Part shown: positions 17,276 to 21,407 of the stretch, piece after piece
Layout: every line of letters begins with the position of its first letter
Position numbering within the stretch: the stretch's first letter is position 1
Origin: Rhodoplanes serenus
GTDB taxonomy: Bacteria; Pseudomonadota; Alphaproteobacteria; Rhizobiales; Xanthobacteraceae
Direction of reading: 5' to 3'
Assembly: GCA_945861855.1 (NCBI GenBank)
Contig: CAMAWG010000026.1
Location: 1-35,032, forward strand
DNA: 35,032 bases
Position numbers and translations under genes: made by a program
Notes under the pieces: generated by a model
Told to the model about the DNA's origin: nothing
The model's database searches: none
Seen by the model: only the letters and a program-made list of their open reading frames with translations

Positions 17276-17357
17276 ACGTCATGGCCGGGCTTGTCCCGGC
17301 CATCCACGTCTTTCTGTTATGCCATGGCGTGGATGCCCGGCACAAGGCCGGGCATGA
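17276..17357. repeat. Paired-hairpin palindromic repeat between glyS and ppdK
   Basis: Two hairpins face each other. ATGGCCGGG and CCCGGCCAT close a CTTGT loop (17281-17303), and ATGCCCGGC and GCCGGGCAT close an ACAAG loop (17333-17355). The two halves are also inverted copies of one another, differing at four positions that are paired changes keeping both stems. The second hairpin recurs exactly at 28221-28244. The style is that of palindromic elements widespread in Bradyrhizobium-like genomes. Confidence 0.8.
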
Positions 17358-17362
17358 CGAAC

Positions 17363-19594
17363 TTAACTGCCTTCGATCTTGGAGAAATCCGCCACGGTCC
17401 TTGTCGCCTCTCTAATTTCATTCAGCAACCGCAGCCGGTTGGCGCGCAATTTCCCGTCATCGACGTTGACCGTGACCTTTTCGAAGAACGCATCCACATG
17501 CGGGCGGAGCTTCGACATGGCGGTCATGGCGGAGGCGAAATCCTCGCGCTTGACCGCTTGGTCCGCCTCCGCCTTTGCGGCGCCGATGGCGCGGGCGAGT
17601 TCCTTTTCCTCGGGCAGTTGGAGCAGGCTCGCGTCCGGCGCGCCGGAGTAGGAGGCGTTGTCCTTCTTCTCCTCGATGCGGAGGATGTTTGCGGCGCGCT
17701 TCGTTCCGGCGAGGAGGTTCTTGCCGTCGTCGGTGTCGAGGAATTTGGCCAGCGCCTCTATGCGGCGAACGATCAGAACAAGATCGTCCTGGCCTTCGAG
17801 CGCGAATACGGCGTCGACGAGGTCATGCCGCGCGCCTTGCTCGCGGAGTTGGACCTTGAGGCGGTCGGCGAAGAAGGCGAGGAGGTCGACGCTATTTTTT
17901 CGAACCTGTTTGCCCGCCCAAGGCACTGCGCCGTGACCAATCGCAACCGTATAGAGCCCACCCTGTTTTGCCCCTCTTTCGCGCGCAAGCTGTTCAAATG
18001 AACTATCAACATTTATAGCTTGTGCATCAAACACGGATACAAGGCTCAGCCTAAGTTTGCTTTCCAACAATAGCCGGATCACACCCAACGCTGCCCGACG
18101 GAGCGCATACGGGTCTTTTGATCCAGTCGGCTTTTCGTCAATCATCCAGAAGCCTACGAGGATGTCGATCTTGTCTGCGAGCGCGACCGCAACCGACACC
18201 GGATCTGCGGGCACGAGGTCGTCCGGGCCCTTCGGCTTGTAGTGATCCTCGATAGCGTGAGCGACGGCTTCATCTTCACCCTGCGCTTCGGCGTAATAGC
18301 GCCCAATCAAGCCTTGAAGCTCGGGGAATTCAGCAACCATTTCTGTAAGCAGATCAGCTTTCGAAATTTGCGCAGCGCGTTGCACGTTATTTAGATATCG
18401 CGCGGAACTGCCTTGATAGTGTCTCTGACCAATCTGCTGCTGGTTTTCCATCACTTCTGAGATCACGCTAGCGAGTTTCACAATTCTCCCGATGCGCTCA
18501 GCCTGCGTGCCGAGCTTTTCGTGGAATACGATCTGCGAAAACTTCGGCAGGCGGTCTTCCAACCGGGTCTTGAGATCGGTCTCGTAGAAGAATTTCGCAT
18601 CCGACAGCCGCGCGCGGATCACGCGCTCATTGCCGGCGACGATCGCCGCACCGCCGTCGCTCGCCTCGATATTGGCTGTCAGGATGAATTTGTTGGTGAG
18701 CTTTGCCGTCTGCGGGTCGCGCACGACAAAGCATTTCTGGTTGTTGCGGATGGTCGCGCGAATGACTTCTTCCGGGATCGAGAGGAACACCTTGTCGAAC
18801 GAGCCCATCAGCACCACCGGCCATTCGACGAGGCCCGCGACCTCGGCGAGCAGACCCTCGTCCTCGACCAGTTCGAAGCCCTGCGCGAAGGCGAGCGTCT
18901 TTGCGTCGGTCAAAATCATCTGCGCGCGGCGTGCGGGATCGACCACGACCTTGGCGGCATCGAGCTTGGCCATGTAGTCGTCGAGCCGCTTCACCCTGAT
19001 CGGTGCGGGCGAAAGGAAACGGTGGCCGTAGGTGGTGTCGCCTGCGGCGACATCCCCGACCGTGAACGGCACGACATCAGGCTCCTCGGTCTCCGGGCCG
19101 AACATCGCGACGATGGAATGCAGCGGCCGCACCCAGTTGAGCGCGCCGGGCTTGCCCGACGCCTCGCCCCAGCGCATCGCCTTCGGCCAGGGAAATGCCT
19201 TCGCCACCTCCGGCACGATGCCGGCGATCACCTCGATGGCCGGCCTACCCGGCTTGTCGATCACCGCGACATAGAAATCGCCCTTCTTGTCGGGCTGCAC
19301 CTTCGCCTGATCGATCGAGGTCAGCCCCGCGCCTTTCAAGAATCCGGCGATGGCCTGTTCGGGGGCGCCGACGCGCGGGCCCTTCTTCTCGTCCTTGATG
19401 TCGGGCTGGCGCACCGGAATGCCGGCGACCGCGAGCGCCAGCCGCCGCGGCGTCGCGAAAGCCTTGGCGCCGTCGTAAGTGAGCCCCGCGGCCACCAGTT
19501 TGTCGGTGACGAGCTTCTTCAAATCCTCCGCCGCCCGCGCCTGCATCCGCGCGGGGATTTCCTCGGAGAAGAATTCGAGAAGAAGGTCGGGCAT
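17363..19594 (-). CDS. glyS: Glycine--tRNA ligase beta subunit
   Basis: GlyS pairs with GlyQ in the alpha2-beta2 glycyl-tRNA synthetase; the beta chain binds tRNA. The 743-residue protein starts with the canonical [17 protein letters not shown], continues through [27 protein letters not shown] and [12 protein letters not shown], and ends with [20 protein letters not shown] and the C-terminal [15 protein letters not shown] stretch near residues 545-595 (around [18 protein letters not shown]) seems long for this family. By hand count 17881-18540 is about 53 percent GC and more AT-rich in codon choice than its flanks, though the frame is unbroken, which suggests past recombination. The ribosome binding site appears to lie in or beside the inverted repeat of the DUF559 unit, 12 bases upstream of the ATG. 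Confidence 0.93.
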
Positions 19595-19601
19595 GGCGGC
19601 T

Positions 19602-20030
19602 CTATTCCCCTCCCCCTTGTGGGGAGGGGTCAGGGGTGGGGGTCGAAGTCATGGCACGCTGGATGTCATCGAGCACGCCATCGATATTCGATAGAACGTC
19701 GTTGTTCCAATAGCGCAACACGCGGTAGCCGTGCGTCTCGAAAACCTTGGTGCGCTCGGCATCGGATGCAGCGCGCTCGACGTGCTGGCCGCCGTCGATC
19801 TCGATAACCAGCTTTGCCTTGTGACTGACGAAGTCGGCGATATATCGGCCGATCTGGACCTGCCGGCGGAAATGGGTTCCGGACGCTGTCAAGCGGTGGC
19901 GGAGATGCAGCCAGAACTTTCGCTCAGCATCGGTGGGATTTGCGCGCATCGAGCGCGCATGAATGCGCTGCGGCGATTCAACCGTGCGATCACGTTTTGC
20001 CCAGGTTCGATTTTCGCCGCGCGTTGGCAT
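19602..20030 (-). CDS. DUF559 endonuclease-like protein
   Basis: A 142-residue protein of the DUF559 family, related to very-short-patch repair type nucleases with a PD-(D/E)XK fold. It has [33 protein letters not shown], the candidate catalytic set Asp66 plus Glu77/Asp79 in [10 protein letters not shown], and the closing [20 protein letters not shown]. The last dozen residues ([12 protein letters not shown]) are simply a translation of the flanking inverted repeat, and the stop lies just beyond it. An internal ATG at 19949 could also start the domain. The gene stands between the CDGSH gene and glyS on the same strand and would be read with them. No methyltransferase or specificity subunit is nearby, so a restriction role is unsupported. 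Confidence 0.85.
19607..19643 (-). repeat. Inverted repeat, left copy (37 bp) of the DUF559 unit
   Basis: The sequence starts CCCCTCCCCCTTGTGGGG and continues as alternating G and C tracts. Its reverse complement recurs at 20054-20090 with one mismatch in 37. It is itself partly palindromic (CCCCTCCCC against GGGGAGGGG). It encodes the last residues of the DUF559 protein and, on the minus strand, ends in a GA-rich run that could act as ribosome binding site for glyS. Confidence 0.92.
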
Positions 20031-20053
20031 TATCGTTTCCGTATCACCGCATC

Positions 20054-20090
20054 ACCCCCACCCCCGACCCCTCCCCACAAGGGGGAGGGG
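20054..20090 (+). repeat. Inverted repeat, right copy (37 bp) of the DUF559 unit
   Basis: This begins ACCCCCACCCCCGACCCC and ends GGGGGAGGGG; it is the reverse complement of 19607-19643 apart from one base. It lies 17 bases beyond the stop of the CDGSH gene and 24 bases upstream of the DUF559 start, so it forms part of that gene's leader. Confidence 0.92.
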
Positions 20091-20107
20091 AGCGGAGAGG
20101 CCGTGCA

Positions 20108-20346
20108 TTACAACTTCTTGTGGCTGCCGTCGCACAATGGCGGCTTGGCGGTCCGCTTGCAGGTGCAGAACCAGACCTCGCCGGTCGCGTCAGGCTTGAA
20201 CTCGCTCGGGCCGAACGCCGTGCCCTTGTGCGAGCCGTCGCAGAACGGCTGCGATTTGGAGCGGCCGCAAGCGCACCACCAGTAGCTTTTTTCCGCCTCG
20301 ACGTTGACCGGCAAGGGCCTGCGCCCGCCGATGTCCGGTATATCGC

Positions 20347-20350
<4 letters not shown>
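20108..20350 (-). CDS. CDGSH iron-sulfur domain protein (two motifs)
   Basis: An 80-residue protein with two CDGSH motifs, [16 protein letters not shown] and [16 protein letters not shown], each with the three Cys and one His that ligate a labile 2Fe-2S cluster. This tandem single-chain arrangement is the bacterial form of mitoNEET-like proteins; roles in redox sensing or cluster transfer are proposed for the family. The ATG at 20350 overlaps the glyQ stop as ATGA, so its translation is probably coupled to the synthetase alpha subunit. An upstream ATG at 20497 would lie deep inside glyQ and adds unrelated sequence. Why a CDGSH protein is coupled to glycyl-tRNA synthetase is not known to me. 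Confidence 0.9.
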
Positions 20351-21279
<929 letters not shown>

Positions 21280-21407
21280 GAGGGATCCAGGCGCGGGCGC
21301 GCGGGGTGAGACGTAACGGCGCACCGGCGGGGGGTCAAGGCAAGCAACGGGCCTCCCCACACACGATGAGGCGCGCTAGGGTGCCGCAAAACACGGGAGG
21401 ATTCACG

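Follow-up and report, generated by a model that had tools for sequence, protein, structure and literature searches.

We analysed a window of 35,032 nucleotides from Rhodoplanes serenus (contig CAMAWG010000026.1, assembly GCA_945861855.1; the window is this whole stretch), in which a small DUF559 nuclease gene lies between near-perfect inverted arms and forms a free-standing unit beside glyS. The same arrangement of gene and arms is widespread and not a local oddity. Paired arms, a mirror code within the arms, two kinds of end (A and B) common to gene-bearing and gene-less units in two genomes, a link between gene presence and repeat number, and lineage-specific insertions are all observed. They are best read as a candidate family of minimal elements, each composed of a DUF559 nuclease and triplex-coding ends and accompanied by gene-less derivatives, which would follow a logic like that of REPIN/RAYT systems with an unrelated enzyme.

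The closest described repeats are the intrastrand triplex motifs (BoxC, PIT elements and TM/TMECO), noted since about 1999-2000 (Bachellier 1999, Hoyne 2000, Hoyne 2002, as cited in PMC4666352); the count of Holder et al. (2015, PMC4666352) exceeds 260 genomes. As reported in the available text of that paper, an oligonucleotide of the E. coli motif forms a triplex in vitro as a single strand, and in vivo no triplex is stable; the surroundings of the motifs change strongly from strain to strain, and the mechanism of this instability is called unclear; and the reduction of a pair to one hairpin is noted as a palindrome effect. MG1655 carries 23 motif copies, and five of its five inverted pairs consist of one type A and one type B motif (PMC4666352). 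The same available text reports no mobility gene near the motifs, and the words DUF, Vsr and endonuclease are absent from its main text.

In the available account of REPIN/RAYT systems (REPtrons, PMC3733652), short palindromes are dispersed as inverted pairs and also flank a small nuclease gene, and in this the window unit is similar. Unlike these systems, the window gene is not of the HUH (Y1) type and its product is predicted to be a PD-(D/E)XK enzyme; neither window arm contains GTAG, and both carry a third-strand code. Alphaproteobacterial repetitive extragenic palindromes of the CGTC type were considered as the same repeat and ruled out (stems starting with AT pairs, and CGTC tag; PMC3733652). 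On the protein side, E. coli YcjD, Caulobacter VsrA and N. gonorrhoeae 3hrl are Vsr-like proteins with the same domain as the window protein, and DUF559 family members are named very-short-patch-repair endonuclease in JGI records. VsrA is induced by DNA damage and needed for the damage response of cells lacking the ScmA methyltransferase; it is interpreted as a putative mismatch-repair nuclease, and the available text makes no mention of inverted repeats beside the gene (PMC12907096). A literature search by title and start of abstract, with most subscription journals and all preprints outside its reach, returned no link between DUF559 and these repeats.

Arms, enzyme and insertion of the Rhodoplanes unit

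The first-pass annotation, made from the sequence alone, had described a DUF559 gene between near-perfect inverted repeats, one of which supplies the C-terminal residues of the protein, and both points were borne out. Only one of the 38 arm positions is mismatched, in the second loop (TCA versus TCG), and all 38 bases of the left arm fall within the span of the DUF559 open reading frame (ORF), whose last residues they encode. A repeat search gave a longer pairing of 19591-19643 with 20054-20106 (53 nt, 87% complementary). Within the window, a 23-base arm core with up to three mismatches occurs in the arms only, and it was absent from 100 shuffles. Both arms are laid out as CCCCTCCCC, a loop, GGGGAGGGG, a three-base loop and GGGGTGGGG. 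They resemble triplex motifs in having a pyrimidine stem, a purine stem and a third purine strand, and both show the full motif layout of stem, loop, stem, short loop and mirror-matched third purine strand; the exact E. coli TMECO consensus (CCCTCNCCC...) was not matched by the window arm. As single strands the arms are calculated to fold into a nine-pair hairpin of -11.5 to -11.8 kcal/mol (z -1.25 to -2.52 relative to shuffles), in a calculation that covers hairpins and not triplexes.

The unit's ORF matches the DUF559/PF04480 profile with 127.3 bits (curated cut-off 20.6), and its only profile matches are to DUF559 and the related MTES_1575. No transposase profile, whether DDE, HUH or other known type, matched the unit's gene, which distinguishes it from insertion sequences. 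The predicted model has a Vsr-type fold with a conserved acidic core and matches Vsr and N. gonorrhoeae 3hrl; among solved structures, its nearest relatives in profile and fold comparisons include I-Bth0305I (3r3p), a homing endonuclease. The enzyme is predicted to be of the PD-(D/E)XK type and not HUH. Unlike I-Bth0305I, it belongs to a unit that stands free between glyS and a CDGSH iron-sulphur gene, with no intron, intein or split gene.

This unit is specific to the source genome. Across 11 genomes of the genus it was found at the glyS junction only there, with GCAT on either side, and the comparison of relatives that the first-pass annotation had proposed yielded a junction without the unit in all 10 other genomes. 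The interval that annotation had named, glyQ-glyS, is more precisely that between the CDGSH gene and glyS.

Further repeats and DUF559 genes were sought in the source genome (4.48 Mb, 248 contigs, 84.8% complete). An arm 25-mer, allowing up to three mismatches, has three copies, all exact, two in the window unit and one in a gene-less pair (L004); a looser hairpin pattern occurs 68 times, and its reversed control not at all. A second DUF559 gene has its own 51-nt arms, which are 98% complementary and quite unlike the window arms in sequence, and is flanked by genes that we take to be hemJ-like and hemE. This second unit is missing from nine of nine readable relatives, in five of which the hemJ-like start lies within 560 nt. 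A third DUF559 match falls in a 426-residue frame close to a contig end, and a repeat search of that locus gave only short, chance-like repeats.

Arms, mirror code and repeat numbers across bacteria

Arms were scored by aligning the 300 nt left of each DUF559 domain to the reverse complement of the 300 nt on its right (threshold score at least 16), with control windows that were drawn from the same loci and overlap each other. Loci of the class were taken as listed rows in order to G062:C23 (E 1.5e-29); four stronger rows with in-frame stops were skipped, and everything weaker, including one row of 103 bits, was left out, as were six genus rows with no locus. Among the matches listed, strong inverted arms flank 80 of the 118 stand-alone DUF559 loci with both flanks (of 121), against 1 of 2088 controls. 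Loci classed as other had strong arms in 6 of 16 cases with both flanks, and the fused DUF559 proteins of the genus (L023-L026) had none; L003 lacks a flank. Among 80 loci from named genomes, two of which lack a flank, 59 of 78 have strong arms, against 0 of 2947 controls. The arm-encoded peptide was itself one of the two search patterns used for the named genomes; the loci that carry it are armed in 4 of 4 cases and the remainder in 55 of 74. By record title, the armed loci of named genomes extend to Betaproteobacteria, Gammaproteobacteria, Deltaproteobacteria and Chloroflexi; many of the records are metagenome bins, and single taxon labels may therefore be wrong. Three matches fell in phages. 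A within-element comparison of arms (42/46) was discarded as biased, the arms having been picked by mutual alignment.

Were the three-stranded form important, the third strand would have to be a mirror match of the purine stem. Of 274 possible arms in 137 units (two duplicate named loci dropped), the 227 distinct arms with a perfect pyrimidine hairpin were tested and 226 were usable; observed and swapped arms had the same choice of two flanks, which replaced a previous run with the flank picked by fit. The third strand matches fully in 198 of the 226 arms; with stems swapped among arms of equal stem length, the mean was 22.7 and the maximum 36 in 500 trials. Arms that are related are not independent of each other, but stem sequences are diverse. 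In the 174 arms with asymmetric stems, the mirrored order fits better in 131 and the direct order in 1. For example, the stem CCTTCCCC is accompanied by the third strand GGATGGGG, and CCCTCTCCC by GGGTGAGGG. These results suggest that selection acts on the triplex code of the arms.

For repeat number, the hairpin pattern CCTCTCCC-N2-14-GGGAGAGG and its reversed control were counted across 289 genomes of the class, of which 72 hold a strong DUF559 match (E under 1e-20) among the matches listed. At least five hairpins occur in 46 of these 72 genomes versus 9 of the 217 others, and 1311 of all 1457 hairpins lie in the 72 (median 10 versus 0); the reversed control occurred 46 times, 29 of them in the same 72 genomes. 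The corresponding p-value of 1e-25 is too small because genomes of one class are related. Contrasts within genera point in the same direction, with 57 hairpins in G273 versus 0 in both G113 and G200, 47 in G231 versus 1 and 1, 35 in G022 versus 1, and 16 in G211 versus 0 and 0. Other genera lack this contrast; in genus g8, 18 hairpins occur in a genome with a weak DUF559 match only. G113 and G200 were also tried for base-exact junctions with G273 and are too diverged for this purpose (about 73-82%).

An oriented arm pattern was run on eight genomes, and arms were fully listed and typed in G022 (3 contigs, 32 arms) and G273 (1 contig, 59 arms). Both genomes contain two arm kinds, A (short) and B (with an extra GC-rich hairpin), which were defined after the lists had been inspected. 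Gene content was read for convergent pairs no more than 1500 nt apart, leaving out wider gaps, divergent pairs (six in G273) and one tandem pair. All 26 close convergent gene-less pairs (gap 19-57) combine one A with one B arm, an independent parallel to the five of five MG1655 pairs in the available text of PMC4666352. The four pairs 151-1500 nt apart (gaps 230-368) are likewise all A+B, and each bears DUF559, truncated in one case. That one is at G022 C1:1222105-1222396 (L204), where A and B arms surround a truncated DUF559 domain, and its sequence suggests a stage between units with and without the gene. In G273 many units also have, by eye, part of the spacer in common.

The palindrome is present as dispersed inverted pairs in the source genome, G022 and G273, and the gene-less pairs in these three genomes answer the search for solo repeat copies that had been suggested at the outset. 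Miniature inverted-repeat transposable elements and their parent insertion sequences have left and right ends common to gene-bearing and gene-less units, and the convergent pairs of G022 and G273 form a similar pattern, with A+B ends on all 26 that lack the gene and all 4 that bear it. Gene-less pairs, the DUF559 content of the four wider ones and the ten empty junctions, all of them comparisons of sequence, support the proposed minimal element in which an endonuclease is combined with its end repeats.

Several further features of the repeats were noted. The listed arms of G230 form mostly tails-outward pairs, the opposite layout, and their second loop again seems to differ between paired arms. 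Many units of G273 (L188-L201) adjoin or sit between outer repeats GTCAAGCCGGAGGG / CCCTCCGGCTTGAC, possibly a preferred target; these outer repeats also match in the DUF559-less G113 and G200 and therefore look like a separate repeat family. In Azospirillum MTCC4038 (L184) and E. coli Ecol_448 (L319) a pair is reduced to a single hairpin, with everything between the arms lost, a collapse that could come from cutting or from replication slippage.

The triplex motifs and DUF559 also meet in E. coli K-12, where copy no. 9 in the available list of PMC4666352 (1,351,204-1,351,239) adjoins ycjD (1,351,407-1,351,760), a DUF559 gene of that strain. At MG1655 L159:5206-5470, about 25 bases of the ycjD 3' end are repeated between two triplex arms, as if they were the remnant of a second, decayed copy. 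Three E. coli intervals were tried as empty sites and rejected. At fabI-sapF, most of the ycjD query is present in 3333 of 5426 genomes, and the two ycjD-less alleles compared carry other genes. At alx-sstT, the one short allele compared is a collapsed pair and not an empty site, because a single fused hairpin remains; a second allele there is replaced. For ygfF-gcvP a single allele was compared, and it has a different neighbour on one side.

The glyS junction and neighbouring genes

Features of the unit and its neighbours are collected in Table 1. The CDGSH gene lies directly at glyS, with the glyS start reached without the 510-bp unit, in seven of the 10 other genus genomes; in relatives such as G002 the CDGSH stop overlaps the glyS start, and the empty junction of G002 and G001 reads GGCATTAC. 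In G004, G008 and G009 (loci L170, L167 and L172) the neighbourhood is different, two of these genomes having no CDGSH gene and glyQ directly at glyS, and the third having a different gene before glyS. The GCAT on both sides of the unit may be a 4-bp target duplication, judging from the flanking sequence; the repeat is partly forced because start and stop codons overlap at the junction. The first-pass annotation had suggested that the element may provide the glyS ribosome-binding site; a purine-rich AAGGGGGAGGGGAA ends 10 bases 5' of the glyS ATG. Just downstream of glyS, an ORF peptide at window positions 17291-17360 hints at another palindrome type.

Table 1. Positions of the unit, its arms and the adjoining genes in the window.
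Feature	Position	Strand	Remarks
Left arm	19606..19643	+	hairpin CCCCTCCCC-CTTGT-GGGGAGGGG, loop TCA, third strand GGGGTGGGG, mirror code
Right arm	20054..20091	-	inverted copy, 37/38 identical, loop TCG
Inserted unit, 510 bp	19595..20104	.	no counterpart at the same junction in 10/10 other genus genomes
DUF559 gene, 142 aa	19602..20030	-	predicted Vsr-fold nuclease; arm encodes its C-terminus
glyS	17363..19594	-	neighbour
CDGSH iron-sulphur gene	20108..20350	-	neighbour; ATG start chosen by us
glyQ	20347..21285	-	neighbour; start chosen by us
GCAT, left flank	19591..19594	.	copy of possible 4-bp target duplication; overlaps glyS start codon
GCAT, right flank	20105..20108	.	second copy of possible target duplication

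Candidate agent of the triplex-motif repeats

For the insertion in the window, we consider it probable that the DUF559 nuclease recognises triplex-code repeats and drives the copying or moving of the unit and of its gene-less relatives. The recurrence of the gene-repeat pairing in many bacteria points to the DUF559 enzyme as the likely agent spreading the repeats. Where an arm becomes single-stranded, for instance in the wake of a replication fork, it would take up a hairpin or triplex form, and the small nuclease would recognise this fold and cut at or beside it. The unit, freed or copied, would then insert elsewhere and might duplicate a few bases of its target (possibly the GCAT of the window, a single event). 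A unit without its gene would still be mobilised in trans while an active copy persisted in the genome, and such units would give rise to the dispersed BoxC/PIT/TM repeat pairs.

Several observations weigh against this proposal. We know of no strand-transfer activity for a bare nuclease, and no movement of the unit was observed in the sequence comparisons. The possible GCAT duplication is one event, arising partly from gene overlap, and therefore proves little. Thirty-eight of the 118 stand-alone loci fall below the arm threshold, many of them with a hairpin on one side. Fourteen genomes with DUF559 have none of the searched hairpin, perhaps because their arms differ, and in genera g70, g58 and g136 the DUF559-bearing genome has 0 hairpins of the searched pattern. 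Similarity of protein and of arms across 80 units is not significantly related (Mantel r 0.10, reached by 59 of 1000 permutations), and co-evolution of enzyme and arm is therefore not claimed. The Azospirillum DUF559 gene occupies one shared site in seven plasmids and can therefore be inherited in place, and E. coli ycjD has both arms on its 3' side. A different role has been proposed for Caulobacter VsrA (PMC12907096, available text).

The gene could instead be a passenger caught between arms that are spread by another enzyme, such as a Y1/RAYT transposase or the host machinery of replication and repair, which we regard as unlikely. Gene-less pairs do outnumber gene-bearing units in G022 and G273 (26 to 4), and nine genomes with no strong DUF559 match hold 6 to 20 hairpins, which also counts against the nuclease as the agent. 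Against a passenger stand the four convergent pairs 151-1500 nt apart in those two genomes, all of which hold DUF559, and the recurrence of the gene-arm link in records titled as several phyla; Y1 transposase presence, moreover, is unrelated to hairpin number (13/60 versus 42/229).

It is also improbable that the protein is a host-serving Vsr-like nuclease for mismatch repair or damage processing, with the arms acting mainly as a terminator, a regulator or a fold kept in check. The resemblance of the predicted model to the Vsr fold, the stability of the Azospirillum gene at one site, and the damage induction of VsrA and its role without ScmA (PMC12907096, available text) would all fit such a function. 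It leaves unaccounted for the 26 gene-less A+B pairs, the lineage-specific insertion, and the finding that in several genera gene and repeats are present or missing together. Under homing, the nuclease would break DNA in or close to an empty site and repair would use a sister copy as template, so that the unit spreads between related sites and is not transposed to new ones. This is very improbable despite the kinship with I-Bth0305I, since the two arm-bounded units of the source genome adjoin unrelated genes and the dispersed gene-less copies stay unexplained.

The first sequence-only reading had known of no established description of such a system. In this the repeat type proved familiar, being that of BoxC, PIT and the intrastrand triplex motifs (PMC4666352), and the tie to DUF559 is new relative to the available text of that paper. 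The novelty would lie in a Vsr-fold nuclease family tied to triplex-code repeats as one minimal element family. We give even weight, for and against, to the broader proposal that stand-alone DUF559 proteins are a new transposase-like class of nucleases that read DNA triplexes, mobilise minimal elements across bacteria, and are the agent of BoxC/PIT/TM repeats and the associated instability.

Triplex-motif repeats have had no known spreading agent and are linked to local genome instability, and one small gene is now a testable candidate for that agent. If the proposal is true, these units would be a class of mobile element whose enzyme is unlike the transposases known to us and whose ends are chosen by a three-stranded DNA fold, and a large nuclease family would have a role outside repair.
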